In this document: one piece after another, positions 830 to 26,723 of the stretch
Layout of the letters: each line of letters opens with the position of its first letter
How positions within the stretch are numbered: position 1 is the stretch's first letter
IMG/VR virus record: IMGVR_UViG_3300048837_001147
Span: 1 to 39,767 of that record
Strand: one strand, 5' to 3'
Origin: a virus
Length of the DNA stretch: 39,767 bases
The notes under the pieces: model-generated
Told to the model about the DNA's origin: nothing
Seen by the model: the letters and a program-made list of their open reading frames with translations, nothing else
Database searches by the model: none
Translations under genes and position numbers: made by a program

Positions 830-2485
830 CTATTTCCGCCGCACCACCCGCTTTTTGCGCTCGAGCTGGGCCGTGACGATGAGGCTGAAACTACGTCTAT
901 GAGCAAGTGCCCCCACAGAGGCCGGGGATATAAGCGTTATTTCCTCCGGGGGGCCAGACGCGGGCGGGAACCAATACTCGATCATGGTCGTCACTCGGTC
1001 GCCGACGCGCTCGACCACGATCCGCCGGACTAAGCCGCGCAGCGCATGGCGCACCTCCTCCAGATCGCCATCGGCCAGGATCGAGCGCAGGCGCGCCGCC
1101 ACCGCGCCGATCTCCGCCCCGCTCATCGGTTGTAAGGTCGCGGCGGCCTCCGCATCCAGACGCGCCAGATCGGATAAGAGCTGCCCTTCATCGGCCTCCA
1201 GCTCGGCCAGCTTGGCCAAGAGCGCCCGGCTGCGCCCATCCTCGGCCAGAGTCTCGGTGATGTTGGCTATACGACGCCTGACCCCGGCTAGGGTCGCCCG
1301 CAGGCCCAGGGCCTGCTGCGTCAGCTCCCCTTGTCGCTCGACCTCAGTCTCCAGGGCGATGGTCTGCTGGAGCGCCAGGTTGTCCGGCTCGAGCACACTG
1401 GCGGCCAGGGTGCGCAGAAGCATCGCCTCGAGCCACAACTTCGGCAGCGCCTCAGCGTCGCAGTCCCGCCGCCGCCGCTGGCCGCTGCACACATAACGCT
1501 CATAGCGGTAGACGTAGCCATCCGGGCGCGTCGCCCGCTCGGTCGAGCCGGAGAGCGGCGCGCCGCAGCGGGCGCAGTAGAGCAGCCCGGAGAGAATGTA
1601 TGGACTGGCCGCCCGGCGCGGGTGCTGGGGGTTATCCCCGGCCAAGTGGCGCCGTCCGGCCCGCGCCGCCAGGATCGCCTGGGCCTGATCCCAGACCTCG
1701 GGACTCACCACCGGCTCGCAGTAATCCTCGATCACCAGGTCGCCGTACTCCAGCACCCCCTTGTAGAGCGGATTGCGAAAGAAGGTGGCGAAGGAGTTGA
1801 CCGAATTGTAGAGCCGGGTGGTGCGCAGAATTTCGGCCAGCGGCGCTCCGGCCAAGAGCAGCTCGAACGCCTGGCGCACCTGCTCGGTCAGCGCCGGATC
1901 GGGCGCCCAGCGGTTGACGATCCGGGGCCGTCCGTCTCGGTGGGTGCTGATTTCGACCGGCTCGCGGCGGAAGCCCCGCGGCGGCGTGCCGGGCAGTGCG
2001 CCGTAGCGCTCCACCAGCACCCGCAGGCCGCTCTTGATGTCCGCAGATAGATCGACCAGGAACTGCTCGTTTTTCCAGTCCAAGAGCGCCTCGTAGACCC
2101 GCCCCATCGAGCCTTCGGGTACGTCGTCGTTGAGCGAGTGGAAGAGATAACCGCGCCGCCGAATGTCGGCCCTGAAAAACTGGCTGTCGTCAATTTCCCT
2201 GGCGAAGCGCTGATAATTCCAGACGACCAGGCCCACCTCGGGGGCGTCGCCCGAGCGAAAGTAGTGCATCATCGCCTGGAACTGGACGCGGGCCACGACC
2301 GATGAGCCGGGCCGCGCTTCGTCCTTGAAGACGCGCCCGGCCACCAGGCCGCTTTCAGCGCACCAGCGGCGGAACTCCCCTTCTTGGCGCGGCACGGATA
2401 ACTCTTGTTTGTCGCCGCCCGAGTCGCGCAGATAGGCCGCCACCAGCGCGCCGGGGGGAAATGGATTGCGCGCGTTACGCGTCAT
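830..2485 (-). CDS. Large serine recombinase (phage integrase)
   Basis: The protein is 551 aa, the usual length of large serine integrases. The N-terminal resolvase domain (about 14-150) contains YLRDSGGDKQELSVPRQ, with the likely nucleophile Ser22. The recombinase domain starts near GTPPRGFRRE (about 165-270). A zinc ribbon follows, from the GLLYCARCGAPL stretch to a second pair of cysteines in YVCSGQ and RDCDAE. Then come a long coiled coil (about 360-440) and a C-terminal domain. Such enzymes integrate phage DNA by attP x attB recombination and need a directionality factor for excision. It is the last gene of a minus-strand group and overlaps the upstream membrane-protein gene by 11 nt. 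attP is usually next to the gene, so the 700-829 gap is the first place to look. Confidence 0.95.
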   Translation of the reverse strand: MTRNARNPFPPGALVAAYLRDSGGDKQELSVPRQEGEFRRWCAESGLVAGRVFKDEARPGSSVVARVQFQAMMHYFRSGDAPEVGLVVWNYQRFAREIDDSQFFRADIRRRGYLFHSLNDDVPEGSMGRVYEALLDWKNEQFLVDLSADIKSGLRVLVERYGALPGTPPRGFRREPVEISTHRDGRPRIVNRWAPDPALTEQVRQAFELLLAGAPLAEILRTTRLYNSVNSFATFFRNPLYKGVLEYGDLVIEDYCEPVVSPEVWDQAQAILAARAGRRHLAGDNPQHPRRAASPYILSGLLYCARCGAPLSGSTERATRPDGYVYRYERYVCSGQRRRRDCDAEALPKLWLEAMLLRTLAASVLEPDNLALQQTIALETEVERQGELTQQALGLRATLAGVRRRIANITETLAEDGRSRALLAKLAELEADEGQLLSDLARLDAEAAATLQPMSGAEIGAVAARLRSILADGDLEEVRHALRGLVRRIVVERVGDRVTTMIEYWFPPASGPPEEITLISPASVGALAHRRSFSLIVTAQLERKKRVVRRK

Positions 2486-2741
2486 AGAGGTCTCTCCGAG
2501 CGGGCAGCACGATGTCCGTTAGCCCCAACAGTGCGCTGGCCGCTAGCCCCCAGCCGAAGGCCGAGAGCATCGAGGTCGGATGCAGCGGCAGCCACCCGAG
2601 CGCCAGGAGCGAGAGCAGCCCGGCTCGCAGGCCGAAGACTATCGGCGCAGGCAGCGGCGGGAGCAGCCGCCCTACTCGGCGGCGCAGCAGAAACACGATC
2701 AGCCAACGGCGTTCTTCTGGGGTCATTGTCTCAATATTCAT
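2475..2741 (-). CDS. Small membrane protein upstream of the integrase
   Basis: The protein is 88 aa starting at ATG 2741; a second ATG three codons upstream (2750) is also possible. A short polar N-terminus (MNIETMTPEERR) is followed by hydrophobic segments at about 12-20, 32-53 and 59-75. No family is recognised. Its 3' end overlaps the integrase start by 11 nt, which suggests translational coupling, and a terminator of the preceding operon lies just upstream. It may be a lysogenic-conversion or superinfection-exclusion factor, but nothing in the sequence proves this. Confidence 0.6.
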   Translation of the reverse strand: MNIETMTPEERRWLIVFLLRRRVGRLLPPLPAPIVFGLRAGLLSLLALGWLPLHPTSMLSAFGWGLAASALLGLTDIVLPARRDLYDA

Positions 2742-2768
2742 AGCTCGCATGTTCTACCGCATCCCGAG

Positions 2769-2800
2769 AAAAAACGCCGGTGCTGCCAAGCCTCCCGGCG
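2769..2800 (-). terminator. Rho-independent terminator of the zinc-ribbon gene
   Basis: On the minus strand CGCCGG (2800-2795) pairs with CCGGCG (2780-2775) and is followed by TTTTTT (plus-strand A-run 2769-2774). It lies 26 nt past the stop of the 231-aa gene and separates that operon from the integrase pair. Confidence 0.75.
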
Positions 2801-2825
2801 TCCATAGCCTAAGCCAACCGTTATT

Positions 2826-3521
2826 TTAACTCGCCGCCAATCTCTTTTCAGGGAGTTCGCCGCCCAGCCCCACAATCTTGCGCCGAATGGCTTCCAAGTC
2901 TCCCTGCTGGGTGCGATCATCATATTCATCATGCGTAAGGAAATAATACGCCTCATAGTATTGATCTAGGGCTTTCTTCTTCTGGCCTTTTAGCTCCGCC
3001 TTCTGGGCCGTGTCCATGTAGATCAACAATTGAACATCGTGCATCCGCTTACTGGCGTCGGCCTCCAAACGGCGCAGAGCGGTAGGGTCTTCCGTCTTTT
3101 TGGCGAACTCCCGCACGCGCAGAATGAACTTCGAAAAAGGGCTGATCTTGCCCGTCGTGGTTGTCGCCAGGGTGGACTTTTCCCCGACCAGTCTGTACTC
3201 ATCCGCCATCATCTGGTAAATGATTCCGTCGCGCTCTTGGCGCAGCTTCTGGATAAATTCGGAGGGTAAGTGATTGAGCGGGAGAGGTATGCCCTTCTGC
3301 TCATAGGGGAGCAGCGCCACCGCCTGCTCGATGATGAAGTCGTAGCGGGAAAGCTGGGTATCTGCCTTCTTGGATTTGGTGATGATGTCCATCGAATCCG
3401 AGATTAGCCGCACCCTTTGCTGTACGTCCATCGCGATCACGGGGTGACATCGGTTGCAGACCCCTAGCTGGGTCAGGCCCATGAACATGCCCGACCTTCC
3501 GCACCACTGACAACTCGCCAT
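2826..3521 (-). CDS. Zinc-ribbon protein of unknown function
   Basis: The protein is 231 aa. The first 26 residues form a treble-clef or ribbon-like zinc site (CQWCGRSG ... GVCNRCH). The rest is predominantly helical and charged, with a TPR-like end (KGQKKKALDQYYEAYYFL). The start is supported by AAGGAGA six bases upstream. It stands apart in the lysogeny region, followed by its own terminator. The coding style is less G+C-rich than in the structural genes, which fits an accessory (moron) gene. I do not recognise the family; a role in host-state sensing or defence would be a guess. Confidence 0.75.
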   Translation of the reverse strand: MASCQWCGRSGMFMGLTQLGVCNRCHPVIAMDVQQRVRLISDSMDIITKSKKADTQLSRYDFIIEQAVALLPYEQKGIPLPLNHLPSEFIQKLRQERDGIIYQMMADEYRLVGEKSTLATTTTGKISPFSKFILRVREFAKKTEDPTALRRLEADASKRMHDVQLLIYMDTAQKAELKGQKKKALDQYYEAYYFLTHDEYDDRTQQGDLEAIRRKIVGLGGELPEKRLAAS

Positions 3522-3583
3522 AACACTCTCCTTCGCTGGTTAGGTTTCTTCCGCTGGACGGCCCTCTTCAGGGGGTAGCTCCG

Positions 3584-3991
3584 TCAATAGGTGATGATGC
3601 CGACCGCCTCGAGAGGCAAGTTCGTAAAGTGCTTCACGTTTTTCGTAACAATGTCTATGCCATAATACTCGGCGGTCGCCGCGATTAAGAGGTCAGGCAC
3701 GCCTGCCGCCGGGATCAAGTGCTTTAGCGCCCCGGCGCGCCGGGCTATGGTTACATTGAGATGATAGCGGCGGAATTTCGCCAGCAGAATTTTGTGCTGC
3801 TTTGCATCGCGATTATTCTTGACCCCAGCCCACAGCTCAAAATCGGTGAGGATCGAAATGCCTGCTCCGCTTGGCCCGCGCACCACCTCATCCACCAACT
3901 GCTTTACCGCCTGGTCGCCTCGGTAGTAACTAATTAACACGCAGCTATCGAACAGGTAGGTTTTCGTCGGGTCCAAAGAAGTCGGGGCCAT
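3584..3991 (-). CDS. vapC: PIN-domain toxin (VapC-type ribonuclease)
   Basis: The protein is 135 aa from ATG 3991. The start is chosen because AAGGA lies five bases upstream and the PIN fold begins directly after (TYLFDSCVLISYYRG). The acidic residues expected of PIN nucleases are present: Asp in LFDSCVLI, Glu in TDFELWAG, Asp in GVPDLLIAATA, and the C-terminal TKNVKHF motif. VapC enzymes cleave tRNA or rRNA and are neutralised by a cognate antitoxin. The upstream gene overlaps by 47 nt and is the probable antitoxin. In a prophage such a pair commonly stabilises the element or blocks other phages. Confidence 0.88.
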   Translation of the reverse strand: MAPTSLDPTKTYLFDSCVLISYYRGDQAVKQLVDEVVRGPSGAGISILTDFELWAGVKNNRDAKQHKILLAKFRRYHLNVTIARRAGALKHLIPAAGVPDLLIAATAEYYGIDIVTKNVKHFTNLPLEAVGIITY

Positions 3992-4367
3992 ACAGTTCCT
4001 TGAGACGTTCATCCCAGCCAGAGCGAAGATTGTCCAGCCAATCATCGTCAATGTCGTCGCGCTCGGCCCAGGAGCCGAACAGCGCGGCGGCGGCTTCGGC
4101 CAGTTCCTCATCGGTCATGGCGACAATTTCAGGATCGTCTTCGTACAACACACGGGGAATGATAACCATCGCAACCTCAGGTTTGCCAGAAGCAAAAACC
4201 GTAGTCCGGATAGCAATTTTATCATCCTCCTGTGTCGTTACCGAGAACGCCGTGCGGCTTGTGCTGGCAGAAACCACATCTTTGATAGGGAAGGCTGTGA
4301 TAGTTCCCACCATCCAAGCATAATCGCTGGCTGATGAATTGATCGTCACCCCACTGGTTGCGGCCAT
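3945..4367 (-). CDS. Probable antitoxin of the PIN toxin, with an extra N-terminal region
   Basis: The protein is 140 aa. The C-terminal part (from about residue 82, 'AMTDEELAEAAAALFGSW' to 'GWDERLKELYG') resembles small acidic antitoxins encoded directly upstream of PIN toxins. The first 80 residues are beta-rich and not typical of VapB; they may be an added sensory domain or a fused small protein. An internal ATG before TDEEL could give a 57-aa antitoxin-only form. It overlaps the toxin by 47 nt and the DUF3467 gene by 22 nt, so the three genes form one operon. AGGTGGTGAT lies just upstream of the start. Confidence 0.65.
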   Translation of the reverse strand: MAATSGVTINSSASDYAWMVGTITAFPIKDVVSASTSRTAFSVTTQEDDKIAIRTTVFASGKPEVAMVIIPRVLYEDDPEIVAMTDEELAEAAAALFGSWAERDDIDDDWLDNLRSGWDERLKELYGPDFFGPDENLPVR

Positions 4368-4723
4368 ATCACCACCTGATCGTCTGGGCTGGGCGGCCTT
4401 TGCAACGGTAGTACAACCCCGTTATCCATCTCATAACTAACCACCGTGTTGGCTATGGCGCTGGCAAGTCCTTTCGCTATGGCCTGTGGGCAGATCACTC
4501 GCTGAACGAATTTCGCTGCCAGGGGCGGACTTTTTTGCGTATCTGGAGCCAGGTAGTAGAAGTCTAGAAACAACTCAGAATTGGTTAAAGAAACCTGGAC
4601 ATAATTGGCATAAAAGTCGGGACGTTGCTCATCCCGGTTACTTGAATTGATTAGGTCTTGAATCCTGACATCTATCTCGGAAGATGTCTGCTGCCTATTG
4701 GGCTGCTGCTTCTTCTGGGTCAT
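4346..4723 (-). CDS. DUF3467-like protein
   Basis: The protein is 125 aa from ATG 4723, preferred over ATG 4732 because AGGAG is eight bases upstream of the former but only three from the latter. After a polar N-terminus, the segment 'DFYANYVQVSLTNSELFLDFYYL' and the later 'VQRVICPQAIAKGLASAIANTVVSYE' match the layout of DUF3467 (NxxxV...S..EF.LDF...R.I..P..AK.L...L...I..YE). The family is small, soluble and of unknown function. As first gene of the toxin-antitoxin operon it may help regulate it. Confidence 0.65.
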   Translation of the reverse strand: MTQKKQQPNRQQTSSEIDVRIQDLINSSNRDEQRPDFYANYVQVSLTNSELFLDFYYLAPDTQKSPPLAAKFVQRVICPQAIAKGLASAIANTVVSYEMDNGVVLPLQRPPSPDDQVVIWPQPVG

Positions 4724-10968: not shown

Positions 10969-13530
10969 ATGACCTTCAGCTTACGCCCCTACCAAACCGA
11001 AGCGATCCAAAGCGTGCGCGCCGACTGGGACGCCGGGTACACCGACGTGCTGGGAACCGCAGCGACGGGTCTGGGCAAGACGGCCATCTTCTGCGCCCTG
11101 CTCCAGCAGGTGATGACGCCGGGCAAGCGGGCGCTGGTGCTGGCTCACCGCCGCGAGCTGGTCAACCAACCCGCCGAGCGCCTGATCAGCTACTACCCCG
11201 AGTGGGCCGGGAAGGTCGGCACGCTCATGGCCGAGCAGCACGAGCCGGATCGCCCGCTGACGGTGGCGACGGTGCAGAGCCTGTCCGCCAGCCCGCGCCG
11301 TCTGGCCGACCTGCTGGCCGCCGGCCCGATTGATTACCTGATCGTTGACGAAGCGCATCACCACACCGACAAGAACACCTACATGGGCGTGACCGAGGCC
11401 CTGCGCGCCGCCAACCCGGCGATGCGCCACCTCGGCGTGACGGCCACGCCCCTGCGCGCCGATGGCGACGGCCTCGGTGGGGTCTACCAAAAAGAGAGCT
11501 TCCACCTCCCCATCGGCTGGGCCGTCAAGAGCGGCTGGCTGGTCAACATCCGCTGGCTGGCAATTGAAACGGCCATCTCGCTGGCAGGCGTCAAGGTGGT
11601 GCGCGGCGAGTTTCAGCGTCGCGGCCTCGCCCAAGTTTACGAGACTGACGCCCTGCTCGGGATCGTGGTCGAGAGCTATCGTCAGTACGCCAGCGACCGC
11701 CAAGCCATCGCCTTCACCGTCACCGTGGACGGGGCGCATCGTCTGGCCGCGGCCTTCCGAGCGGCGGGGGTGCGCGCCGACGCCGCCGACGGCGGCACCG
11801 ACAAGGCCGAGCGCGCCGCCGTTCTCGACCGCTTCGCCCGCGGCGAGACCCAGGTGCTGTGCAACGTCGGCCTGTACACCGAGGGGCTGGACATCCCGGC
11901 GGCCTCCTGCATCCTCATGGCCCGTCCCACCAAATCGGACGGGCTGTACGTGCAGTGCATGGGGCGGGGCGTCAGAACGTATCCCGGAAAGGCGGATTGT
12001 ATTGCTGAGGGACAGCGTGTGCTTACCGATCACGGTCTTGTGGCAATCGAACGGGTAACACGTTCGATGAAAGTTTGGGACGGCGATGAATTTGTCTCGC
12101 ACGCCGGAACCATTTGTCGAGGAGAACAGGAGGTAATAACTTATGCAGGACTTACCGCAACCCCAGACCACAAAGTTTGGACAGAGAATGGCTGGCGACG
12201 CTTCTCCGAGTGCGCCGATAAATCAATCCCAATCGCGGTTACCGGAAGCGGTGGGACAGCTATTCGGACGGCTAATGGTTATCGACGCAACGCCTCAGCA
12301 GAAGAATGGGCGTGCCTACCTAAAAATGCGCTGCACAACTTGCGGGAAAGAGGGACTCTGGTGCCGGACAAGTGTTCGCAGAGGTTTGGCTGGCTGCCGG
12401 AAATGTGGTCGAGCCAACACCCTCGGACGAGAACTTCTGACTGTTCCGAAGTGGCTTTACAAGCGAGCGCAAGCTGCACAGCAGCGGTGTACCAATGCGC
12501 ACGGCCCAGAGTATCCCAATTACGGAGGCAGGGGCATCGAATTCAGATTCGCTTCCCCCAAAGCGATGGCAATCTGGGTCAAGGAAAATCTTGGTCTGCA
12601 TCAGGCGATGCAGATAGACCGCATCAACAACAACGGACATTACGAGCCGGGGAACTTGCGTTATGTGACCAACCAGGTGAATGTGTTCAACAGCCGGAAG
12701 CAGAAAGTCAGCGCGGAGTTTCACGCCTTTCGTATGAAGTACCCGGAAGTGAAATATGCAGATGCAACTCTGCGCAGGCTTCTGCTAGAAGGGATGACAC
12801 CAGAAAAGATTGTGGAAAGGTATCACCAACCATCTTGCAAGCCAAAAGGCGTGTATGGGACATTCTCAACGCCGGACCCAATCATCGCTTCACTGCGGAA
12901 GGACTCTTAGTTTCCAACTGCCTGATCCTCGACTTCGCCCCTGCCGAGAAGCGCAACGTCATCATGGCGGGCGATGTGTTGGGCATCCCGCTGCCCAAAC
13001 GCGACGTGTTTGCCGAGCCGGTGGCGCGGGGCGAAGCCGCCGCCGGGTTTACCTACGACGGCCAGTTCAGCTTCTTGGACGGCTCGCCGGTCGAACTCAT
13101 CAGCCGCCAGCTCAACTACCTGGAGATCAGCCCGTGGTCGTGGTACCGCCGCGACAACTACCTGACCCTGGGGCTGGGCGAAGCGGCGGATGGGGTCGAG
13201 CGGACGCTCGTCATCACCCCGCAGCGCGAGGGCGAGGTCACGCTCTGGGGCGTGTGGCGCGAGGGCCGCGCCCCGCTGCGCTCGACCCGCTTGGCGAGCG
13301 GCGCCTTTGGCGAGATCGAAGCCCGCGCTGAGGAGATCGCTGCCAAGTGGGGCAGCGCCGCCCTGGCCGCCAAGACCCGCTCCTGGCGCGGCCAGGCGCC
13401 GACCGATAAGCAGCTGGCTTTTGCCCGCCGCATCGGGGCGCACCGCGCCGGGATGACCAAAGGCGAGCTGGCCCAATCCATCACCCACACCCTGGCGGTG
13501 CGGGTCGTCCAGCAAGGAGCTGTGGTATGA
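10969..13530 (+). CDS. DEAH-box superfamily 2 helicase containing an intein
   Basis: The precursor is 853 aa and predicted to be 546 aa after splicing. N-extein: Walker A ATGLGKT (32-38), DEAH (127-130), motif III GVTATP (156-161), and motif VI in YVQCMGRGVRTYPGKAD (about 327-343). The intein starts at Cys344 and ends at Asn650; the C-extein resumes with Cys651 (CLILDFAP). Rejoined, 'GKAD-CLILDF' restores the normal sequence of this helicase family, which fixes both boundaries. The C-terminal region (about 651-853) includes a helical segment near TDKQLAFARRIG. The start follows AGGGAAGAG with good spacing. It is encoded between the XPD-like helicase and the primase, so it is probably a replication helicase. 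The intein interrupts the conserved ATP-hydrolysis motif region, so activity should depend on splicing. Confidence 0.92.
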   Translation: MTFSLRPYQTEAIQSVRADWDAGYTDVLGTAATGLGKTAIFCALLQQVMTPGKRALVLAHRRELVNQPAERLISYYPEWAGKVGTLMAEQHEPDRPLTVATVQSLSASPRRLADLLAAGPIDYLIVDEAHHHTDKNTYMGVTEALRAANPAMRHLGVTATPLRADGDGLGGVYQKESFHLPIGWAVKSGWLVNIRWLAIETAISLAGVKVVRGEFQRRGLAQVYETDALLGIVVESYRQYASDRQAIAFTVTVDGAHRLAAAFRAAGVRADAADGGTDKAERAAVLDRFARGETQVLCNVGLYTEGLDIPAASCILMARPTKSDGLYVQCMGRGVRTYPGKADCIAEGQRVLTDHGLVAIERVTRSMKVWDGDEFVSHAGTICRGEQEVITYAGLTATPDHKVWTENGWRRFSECADKSIPIAVTGSGGTAIRTANGYRRNASAEEWACLPKNALHNLRERGTLVPDKCSQRFGWLPEMWSSQHPRTRTSDCSEVALQASASCTAAVYQCARPRVSQLRRQGHRIQIRFPQSDGNLGQGKSWSASGDADRPHQQQRTLRAGELALCDQPGECVQQPEAESQRGVSRLSYEVPGSEICRCNSAQASARRDDTRKDCGKVSPTILQAKRRVWDILNAGPNHRFTAEGLLVSNCLILDFAPAEKRNVIMAGDVLGIPLPKRDVFAEPVARGEAAAGFTYDGQFSFLDGSPVELISRQLNYLEISPWSWYRRDNYLTLGLGEAADGVERTLVITPQREGEVTLWGVWREGRAPLRSTRLASGAFGEIEARAEEIAAKWGSAALAAKTRSWRGQAPTDKQLAFARRIGAHRAGMTKGELAQSITHTLAVRVVQQGAVV
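12128..12134 (+). promoter_or_regulatory. Shine-Dalgarno of the nested HNH gene
   Basis: AGGAGGT (12128-12134) lies eight bases before ATG 12143, one of the best ribosome binding sites in the window. It lies wholly inside the intein's N-terminal splicing region (codons for G-E-Q-E-V-I-T-Y). It indicates that the +1-frame ORF is translated from its own internal start. Confidence 0.85.
12143..12910 (+). CDS. HNH homing-endonuclease-like protein encoded +1 out of frame inside the intein
   Basis: The protein is 255 aa. From about residue 38 it follows the common phage HNH endonuclease layout: 'GQLFGRLMVIDA', a zinc ribbon (CTTCGKEGLWC ... GCRKCGR), then 'RCTNAHGPEYPNYGGRGIEF', and the core 'QIDRINNNGHYEPGNLRYVTNQ'. 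A helical C-terminal DNA-binding-like segment follows (DATLRRLLLEGMTPEKIVERYH). The first 37 residues overlap intein block B, and the last 20 overlap blocks F/G; neither end resembles the HNH family, as expected if the splicing frame constrains them. The conserved core lies exactly where an intein endonuclease domain would sit, but in another frame. It would cut intein-less helicase alleles and so promote homing of the whole element. Stop TAG is at 12908-12910. Confidence 0.88.
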   Translation: MQDLPQPQTTKFGQRMAGDASPSAPINQSQSRLPEAVGQLFGRLMVIDATPQQKNGRAYLKMRCTTCGKEGLWCRTSVRRGLAGCRKCGRANTLGRELLTVPKWLYKRAQAAQQRCTNAHGPEYPNYGGRGIEFRFASPKAMAIWVKENLGLHQAMQIDRINNNGHYEPGNLRYVTNQVNVFNSRKQKVSAEFHAFRMKYPEVKYADATLRRLLLEGMTPEKIVERYHQPSCKPKGVYGTFSTPDPIIASLRKDS

Positions 13531-25226: not shown

Positions 25227-26723
25227 ATGCCTCAACTGATTTCCAACCTATCGGAACTGACCAGCGAGGCGGTGGCGGCTTTCCGCAAGGCGATTGCCCA
25301 GCCGCAGCCCGCCGACAAGCTGGCAAAGTCGATCACCCAGGCTACTGGCCTGACGGCCTACGATTTGCAGGCCCCCGCCAAGCAGCTCTTCCCGGTGCTG
25401 ACGCCGATCCGCAACAAAATCCCGCGCGTCTCCGGGCGCGGCGGCACCGCCACCAACTGGAAGGCTGTCACCGCCATCAACACCGCCTCGCTGCGCGGTT
25501 TCGTCCCCGAAGGCACTCGCAACGGACGTGTGGCGACTTCGGTGGTCGAGCGCAACGCCTCGTACAAGACCTACGGCCTGGAAGACAGCGTAACCTTCGA
25601 AGCCGAGCGCGCCGGCCAGGGCTTTGAGGACATCAAGGCCACCACTGCCCAGCGCCTGCTGTGGGCGACCATGATCGAGGAGGAGCTGCAAGACCTAGGC
25701 GGCAATGCTGGCCTGGCGCTCGGTACGCCCACCGCCCCCACCGTGACCGCGGTCAACGGCGGTGGGACGATTGCTGACGGAACCTACAACGTGATCGTGG
25801 TGGCACTCTCGCTCTTCGGCTTCCTGGCCAGTTCGCTGCCCACTGGGATCGTGGGTGCTGTGTCGGTGTCTACGGCCACCGGCAACGCCTTCAGCTACGG
25901 CGGCGGTTCGTCCAACAAATCCAGCGCCACCTCGACCGGCGAACTCGCCAACGGCGGCGATTTGATCCTGCGAGCCTCTACCCCGGTCGTGCGCGGCGCA
26001 GTGGCCTACGCCTGGTTCGTCGGAGCGGCGGGAAGTGAGCTGCTCCAAGCCATCACCACCATCAACAGCGTCGAGCTGAAGAGCCTGGTGACGACGGGCC
26101 GCCAGAACGCCAGCGCCATCACCGCCGACAACTCGCGCCACACCTACGGCTACGACGGCATCCTGTATCAGGCGTGGGCCGACGGCTCGAATGCCTACAT
26201 CCACAGTCTGGCCACCGGTACGGCCGGCGCGGGGACGCCGCTCTCGACCGACAACGCCGGGGGCATCGTCGAGATCGACGCCATGCTCGAGGCGATGTGG
26301 AGCGGCTACAAGCTCTCGCCGACCACGATCTACGTCAACGCCCAGGAAGCCAAGAACATCACCAAGCTGCTCTTGGGCGGGTCGGGCGTCAACTACAACC
26401 TGAATATGGCCCCCGGCTCCGAGTTCACCGCCGGGGCGATTGTGGCCCGCTATCTCAACAAGTTCTCGATGGGCGGCGGTCAGGTTATCCCGATCCAGAT
26501 TCACCCCTACCTGCCCGCTGGGACGCTGACGGCGCTTACCGAGCAGCTCCCTTACCCCGTGACCAACATCCCGAACGTGATGGAGAAGATCCTGCGTCAG
26601 GACTACTACCAGATCGAGTGGCCGCTGCGTGAGCGCGCCTACGAAACCGGCGTCTACGCCGACGGCGTGCTGGCCCACTACTTCCCGCCCTCGATTGGGA
26701 TCATCTCCAACATCGGCGGTTAG
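25227..26723 (+). CDS. Major capsid protein with inserted domain
   Basis: The protein is 498 aa, preceded by AAGGAGT. The N-arm and core (LFPVLTPIRNKIPRVSGRGGTATNWKAVTAINTASLRGFVPEGTRNG ... SYKTYGLEDSVTFEAERAG) and the C-terminal part (EIDAMLEAMWSGYKLSPTTIYVNAQEAKNI ... YYQIEWPLRERAYETGVYADGVLAHYFP) are HK97-fold. Between about 170 and 300 is a Gly/Ser/Thr-rich beta domain (APTVTAVNGGGTIADGTYNVIVVA ... AYAWFVGAAGSELLQAITT), probably Ig-like and surface-exposed. It could replace a separate decoration protein. Confidence 0.9.
   Translation: MPQLISNLSELTSEAVAAFRKAIAQPQPADKLAKSITQATGLTAYDLQAPAKQLFPVLTPIRNKIPRVSGRGGTATNWKAVTAINTASLRGFVPEGTRNGRVATSVVERNASYKTYGLEDSVTFEAERAGQGFEDIKATTAQRLLWATMIEEELQDLGGNAGLALGTPTAPTVTAVNGGGTIADGTYNVIVVALSLFGFLASSLPTGIVGAVSVSTATGNAFSYGGGSSNKSSATSTGELANGGDLILRASTPVVRGAVAYAWFVGAAGSELLQAITTINSVELKSLVTTGRQNASAITADNSRHTYGYDGILYQAWADGSNAYIHSLATGTAGAGTPLSTDNAGGIVEIDAMLEAMWSGYKLSPTTIYVNAQEAKNITKLLLGGSGVNYNLNMAPGSEFTAGAIVARYLNKFSMGGGQVIPIQIHPYLPAGTLTALTEQLPYPVTNIPNVMEKILRQDYYQIEWPLRERAYETGVYADGVLAHYFPPSIGIISNIGG

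Follow-up and report, generated by a model that had tools for sequence, protein, structure and literature searches.

The superfamily-2 helicase gene of a tailed phage is interrupted by an intein whose HNH endonuclease gene is nested out of frame between the two splicing halves. This layout is almost certainly real and conserved, and the full mechanism, in which the intein splices and a separately translated HNH protein acts in homing, is very likely to judge from sequence comparisons and predicted structures. By the usual description an intein is a single polypeptide with splicing activity and, often, homing activity as well. In the layout described here, and in many phages, these two roles appear to be divided between two separately selected proteins that are encoded by the same piece of DNA.

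The phage and its interrupted helicase gene

The window, i.e. the whole stretch of 39,767 nucleotides that was analysed, is a complete IMG/VR virus record, and its genes for a serine-type integrase, terminase, portal and primase-like protein are those of a tailed phage. The integrase, of the large serine recombinase type (Resolvase, Recombinase and zinc ribbon; 830-2485, minus strand), suggests that the phage is temperate. Elsewhere in the window (25227-26723, plus strand) a 498-residue protein matches phrog_13692 (1e-132), a full-length family of unknown function.

The host gene and the intein form a single ORF of 853 codons, of which 546 are left after predicted splicing; the helicase is not broken into two ORFs, and homologues that lack the intein are present in other phages. 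The coordinates that an earlier note on this DNA had given for Cys1, the terminal Asn, Cys+1, the HNH ORF and the sequence AGGAGGT, with its spacing of eight bases, were all confirmed (Table 1).

Table 1 Features of the interrupted helicase gene.
Feature	Positions	Strand	Evidence
Host gene, superfamily-2 helicase ORF	10969-13530	+	ResIII 4.9e-26, Helicase_C 1.6e-14; phrog_16 1e-80
Intein, zero frame, 307 aa	11998-12918	+	AlphaFold2 ends pLDDT 94-98; Mtu RecA intein splicing domain Z 16.7; uninterrupted homologues
N-terminal splicing half (Cys1; block B T55-P-D-H58)	11998-12264	+	Residues 1-89 confident in model
Shine-Dalgarno-like AGGAGGT	12128-12134	+	8 bases before nested ATG; overlaps zero-frame codons Gln-Glu-Val
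Nested HNH endonuclease gene, +1 frame, 255 aa	12143-12910	+	phrog_374 'HNH endonuclease' 1.8e-27; AlphaFold2 core pLDDT > 90
Zero-frame linker over HNH gene: open, predicted disordered, not conserved	12265-12804	+	pLDDT, pairwise distances
Zinc-ribbon-like Cys pairs of HNH (C64, C67, C85, C88)	12332-12406	+	At least 90% conserved, 29 sequences
HNH core DRINNNGHYEPGNLR (D159-R173)	12617-12661	+	Conservation across 29 sequences
C-terminal splicing half: block F VWDILNAGPNHRFTAEG, then LLVSN	12805-12918	+	pLDDT 62 at 271-280, then 95-96
Cys+1 of C-extein	12919-12921	+	Same Cys in uninterrupted helicase of phage CRP-902, GKENCLVLDY

In the helicase the intein is inserted immediately N-terminal to the Cys in the motif GK-x-(D/N)-C-L-(I/V)-L-D. 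From the Cys1 codon at 11998 the zero frame reads CIAEGQRVLTDHGLV... and it ends ...VWDILNAGPNHRFTAEGLLVSN with the Asn codon at 12916-12918, followed by Cys. The element has the features of a class 1 intein, namely Cys1, a block B TxxH, a terminal Asn and a Cys at +1, together with a predicted Hint fold of the splicing halves and a conserved host site that is found uninterrupted elsewhere. C1, T55, H58, D288, G293 and N307 are invariant among 29 aligned inteins. The penultimate residue, before Asn307, is Ser306; Ser is also found in two relatives (L033 and L070, loci being given as L numbers) and His in most of the others. A penultimate His is usual in inteins but not required in all, and it was not used as a defining feature. 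No intein family of Pfam matched the window proteins.

An AlphaFold2 model built from the 29 aligned inteins was confident for residues 1-89 and about 280-307 (block means 80-98). Its best VIA-align match is the splicing domain of the Mtu RecA intein (120 residues, rmsd 2.1), and intein chains stand at the top of the VIA-align list and also dominate the PDB profile matches. The two ends of the intein are thus predicted with confidence to form a Hint splicing domain. Between them, the pLDDT is below 50 for nearly all of residues 92-269, a stretch of about 180 residues. The earlier note had seen no recognisable domain in the middle of the zero frame, and none was found in Pfam, the region being predicted to be disordered.

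The endonuclease is not in frame with the splicing halves, as it would be in a canonical intein, but in phase +1 to them. Its ORF runs from the ATG at 12143 to a stop ending at 12910 and overlaps both splicing halves. Profile searches of both frames, as the earlier note had proposed, placed helicase domains in the zero frame and an HNH protein of phrog_374 in the +1 frame, in agreement with its reading of that frame. Within the HNH core D159, R160, I161, Y167, G170 and N171 are invariant, and R173 is conserved in at least 90% of the 29 sequences. An AlphaFold2 model of the HNH frame of the same DNA has a mean pLDDT of 80. Pfam and NCBIfam gave no match above chance for the HNH protein, its profile matched no PDB sequence and Foldseek found no match at E <= 0.001; the top VIA-align row for the model is a known HNH nuclease, PacI, but at Z 5.1 this is a weak match within the noise range and does not prove the HNH (beta-beta-alpha metal) fold. 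The phage HNH endonucleases of phrog_374 and freestanding relatives belong by profile to the same HNH family as the nested protein; the freestanding copies keep no second frame open, whereas the nested gene does.

Related inteins and the phase of the HNH gene

Scans of single window proteins against viral contigs gave no relatives; an alignment of HNH proteins used as the query did find them. In tblastn searches the best matches of the HNH protein lay out of frame inside annotated phage DNA polymerase genes, from Gardnerella phage AB1 and Streptococcus Javan phages, and the alignment of these matches fetched 24 viral and 80 genome loci, in which inteins were marked by a profile of the intein N-half. 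This gave 66 related inteins with both blocks, forming 31 clusters at 85% nucleotide identity.

In all 66 the HNH gene is out of frame and the zero frame is open, which bears out the main proposal of the earlier note, an intein with an out-of-frame HNH gene that is due neither to chance nor to error. The phase is +1 in every HNH-bearing intein except L005, L006 and L106, where it is +2; none is in phase. Since the relatives were fetched through the HNH protein, the set is enriched for HNH carriers and cannot give the share of inteins without this layout. A separate search with the intein N-half returned 191 phage records, 142 of them from Salmonella, and ten more phage regions were fetched and inspected. 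These yielded further +2 copies (Salmonella SE2 and Ijeoma, Pseudomonas MR14 and Escherichia Pubbukkers) and +1 copies (Shewanella SFCi1, Caulobacter GB2A and APSE-1), which likewise combine an out-of-frame HNH gene with a zero frame free of stops.

Many of the inteins sit in genes for family-A DNA polymerases, next to conserved motifs. Two phage records, APSE-1 (P46) and SO-1 (gp39), already annotate an HNH ORF inside the polymerase gene. In three polymerase regions (L041, L062 and L070) an additional intein N-half stands at the end of the upstream ORF, and an intein C-half at the start of the ORF that follows; there seems to be a split intein in these regions besides the nested-HNH intein.

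Start of the nested gene

In 18 of the 27 clusters the HNH start chosen is an ATG located 145 nt downstream of the first base of the Cys1 codon; the remaining clusters start at other positions (103, 133, 187). The Tyr codon that precedes position 145 is TAT in 19/28 clusters, against 13.4 expected. The earlier note had taken the AGGAGGT in front of the nested ATG as an argument against chance. Its position stands, but in the window it carries no independent weight, the match being no better than expected from the zero-frame amino acids at the codon usage of the exteins (p 0.64). The mean Shine-Dalgarno match of the 27 clusters is 6.0, with 4.7 expected (combined p 0.03), in a test biased towards a signal because the starts were picked by a script for the best Shine-Dalgarno match. 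As an independent proof the string was rejected in the window, where the zero-frame amino acids explain it, and it is weak overall.

The mechanism that best accounts for these features is as follows. Ribosomes in the helicase frame would make a precursor in which the N and C splicing halves are joined by the low-constraint linker. The halves would fold into the Hint domain, the intein would be cut out and the exteins would be joined into a helicase of 546 residues, as the motifs and the predicted fold suggest. The 255-residue HNH protein would be made separately from the +1 frame, by ribosomes that initiate anew at the ATG at 12143; the conservation of this start and of the frame, which is open, argues for it. 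This protein would then cut intein-free alleles, and their repair would copy the intein in with co-conversion of the flanks, as patterns in the related sequences suggest.

The HNH gene lies between the splicing halves as the endonuclease does in canonical inteins, an arrangement that would also fit programmed frameshifting from the intein N-half, giving an intein-HNH fusion, with some ribosomes returning to make the C-half. However, in 11 of the 18 clusters whose start is at +145, among them that of the window, the HNH frame has a stop 6 or 9 nt ahead of the ATG; the HNH gene has its own stop near the intein end, and both +1 and +2 layouts occur. We consider frameshifting very unlikely and favour separate initiation.

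Comparison with known systems

The closest published case is the ShiLan element of mycobacteriophage DNA methylases (Arsenault, Gosselin and Gogarten 2025, PMC11855218). As here, an HNH gene lies out of frame in an insert whose host frame is open, and the sporadic distribution of the element was taken as homing. In contrast to the intein described here, whose ends are splicing halves, the ShiLan insert has no splicing domain and is thought to stay in the methylase; it also has a GTG start without a Shine-Dalgarno sequence, whereas most starts here are ATG. The same coding trick and the disordered, low-constraint middle of the zero frame would agree with a non-splicing insert of this type in the helicase as well. 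Against this stand the invariant Cys1, TxxH and Asn followed by Cys, the predicted Hint fold, and the many family-A polymerase hosts in which the insert adjoins conserved motifs; such an insert is thus a most improbable explanation, and a splicing intein is preferred. A separate locus (L076) has an HNH ORF (1636-2280) out of frame within a long open ORF (3-2531) without recognisable intein blocks, and is possibly a ShiLan-like case.

The earlier note was aware of no described intein of this form. A search of published papers, with a minority of the subscription journals among its sources, found none that describes an intein with an out-of-frame endonuclease, a result that does not prove absence; the novelty of the layout is qualified by the out-of-frame HNH in a non-splicing insert published in 2025 (PMC11855218) and by the annotations of APSE-1 and SO-1. 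A preprint on non-canonical actinobacteriophage inteins (Gosselin, Arsenault and Gogarten, bioRxiv 2025, 10.1101/2025.01.02.630785) is cited in PMC11855218 for overlapping reading frames, and to judge from that citation it may contain similar cases. The Felix O1 genome paper excluded inteins on the ground that the HNH genes and the genes next to them were in different frames (PMC3185647); the present layout means that an HNH gene in another frame does not rule out an intein.

Canonical bifunctional inteins, such as PI-SceI and PI-PfuI, likewise have splicing halves with the endonuclease between them in the DNA, a conserved site and homing; in these the endonuclease is part of the intein polypeptide, whereas here another frame would supply it as a protein of its own. 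The fractured genes of Dassa and colleagues (2009, as cited in PMC10448857) are reported to be split inteins whose two halves flank a free-standing endonuclease gene. The endonuclease is thus encoded between the halves and uncoupled from the splicing polypeptide, as here, but the host gene is split, whereas here one continuous ORF is overlapped by the endonuclease gene.

The layout would let the nuclease be made without the host protein, or the reverse. Because it recurs in dozens of lineages it represents a real, little-recognised way to build a selfish gene. Somewhat more probable than not is the broader view that out-of-frame nesting is a lasting design of phage inteins that has arisen repeatedly and independently (+1 and +2), found in polymerases and helicases and in several bacterial phyla, and overlooked because the nuclease was expected in frame; it would free the dose of the nuclease from splicing and offer a route to short inteins, through loss of the HNH gene, and possibly to split inteins.

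Constraint on the two reading frames

For the window HNH ORF, synonymous-codon shuffles predict 9.0 stops in 198 zero-frame codons; none is observed, and the zero frame was open in 0/3000 shuffles. The chance of about 1 in 10,000 that the earlier note had put on this openness is of the right order. The third frame has 10 stops, with 9.5 expected. Across the 31 clusters, shuffles of the HNH core gave 264.6 expected zero-frame stops in sum and none are present, while third-frame stop counts are near expectation. Among 44 HNH loci that had been set aside, a second frame is open across the HNH gene only in L106, which is a nested member, and in L076.

Between L061 and L065 there are 95 changes per 200 residues in the zero frame versus 31 in the HNH protein, and other pairs have 28 vs 9, 32 vs 4 and 113 vs 42 of 200. 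Zero-frame changes exceed HNH changes in most pairs beyond the very closest, in which the changes are few in all and the two counts are similar or sometimes reversed. Over the 28 +1 clusters the mean pairwise amino acid distance is 0.73 for the linker, 0.475 for the HNH protein and 0.43 for the splicing halves. The distances of the splicing halves and of the HNH protein are correlated (Mantel r 0.92, 0/5000 permutations; 0.56 in the polymerase subset). Taken together, the stops, changes and distances by frame indicate that what is kept is the HNH protein on the one hand and a stop-free zero frame on the other, and that the linker residues are nearly free, which answers the call of the earlier note for a comparison of conservation in the two frames: HNH residues are conserved and linker residues drift. 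Selection would keep the HNH protein sequence and, separately, keep the zero frame free of stops, so that the host gene and splicing survive. The locus offers a clear natural example of overlapping genes, of which one lies in a constrained frame and the other in a nearly free one.

Two indels, by sequencing error or decay, in an ordinary in-frame HNH intein would produce the same layout, with the HNH in the usual endonuclease slot. The recurrence of the same phase and start position in many clusters from independent genomes, the lack of any in-phase relative among those found and the missing stops make this extremely unlikely, and sequencing error is ruled out by the relatives with the same layout. 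A single frame through N-block, HNH and C-block, which the earlier note had named as evidence against its reading, is restored in no relative, nor is the zero frame broken in any of the relatives found. The nested intein is also preferred over a group I intron removed at the RNA level, which is suggested by the annotation of Sodalis phage SO-1 (NC_013600, gp38/gp39) and is of negligible probability: splicing blocks are encoded in the zero frame, which has no stop, and Rfam at its gathering score gave no match in the window and no intron match in six related loci.

In that Sodalis record (L006) the nested DNA polymerase/HNH pair (1349-4537 and 2833-3591) is annotated as containing a 'type I self-splicing intron'; it looks like a +2 nested intein, and Rfam found no intron there.

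Mobility, decay and phylogeny

Flank profiles were computed for five intein pairs, of which L055 (Clostridium contig) and L059 (Soehngenia contig) are the clearest. Their inteins are 96.1% identical, while the polymerases have diverged to about 65%. Flank identity is 97% (5') and 90% (3') over the first 60 nt and 67% (5') and 61% (3') at 150-300 nt; farther out the 5' flank is at 62-65% and the 3' flank at 72-84%, the latter climbing back to 84% at its deep end, so there is no single smooth gradient. This conversion-like pattern would match the co-conversion expected from homing, although one pair is no proof. A clear fall on both sides is seen only in this pair; L004/L008 has a high 5' stretch only, and the other three have no such clear gradient. 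Streptococcal phages have polymerases that lack the intein and whose identity over the joined site reaches 95%.

In L003 the HNH frame is interrupted by one TGG to TGA change, with the zero frame intact, and L114, a short intein, has an HNH piece that is truncated and out of frame; by their sequences the two are stages of decay. L113 is a short intein with no HNH match.

The deepest split is common to the splicing-half and HNH trees. The window groups with L033 in the splicing-half tree (97/85) and with L033, L036 and L043 in the HNH tree (96/94). In L033 and L036 the intein lies, as in the window, just before a C-(L/I)-(V/I)-L-D motif, and the context of L043 is similar but more divergent; these insertion contexts point to a likely helicase-borne branch. 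In the splicing-half tree the +2 layouts are all on one side of a branch (81/78), while the HNH tree requires two changes between +1 and +2, which its strong branches do not force.

Two further loci have other arrangements. L031 (3413-4729) keeps the HNH frame and the C-half of the polymerase, the intein N-half was not found there, and the locus looks rearranged. In L121 (Moraxella phage Mcat20) a hypothetical protein (2147-3079) has an intein-like N-half and a C-block with no HNH match, apparently a short intein in another gene.
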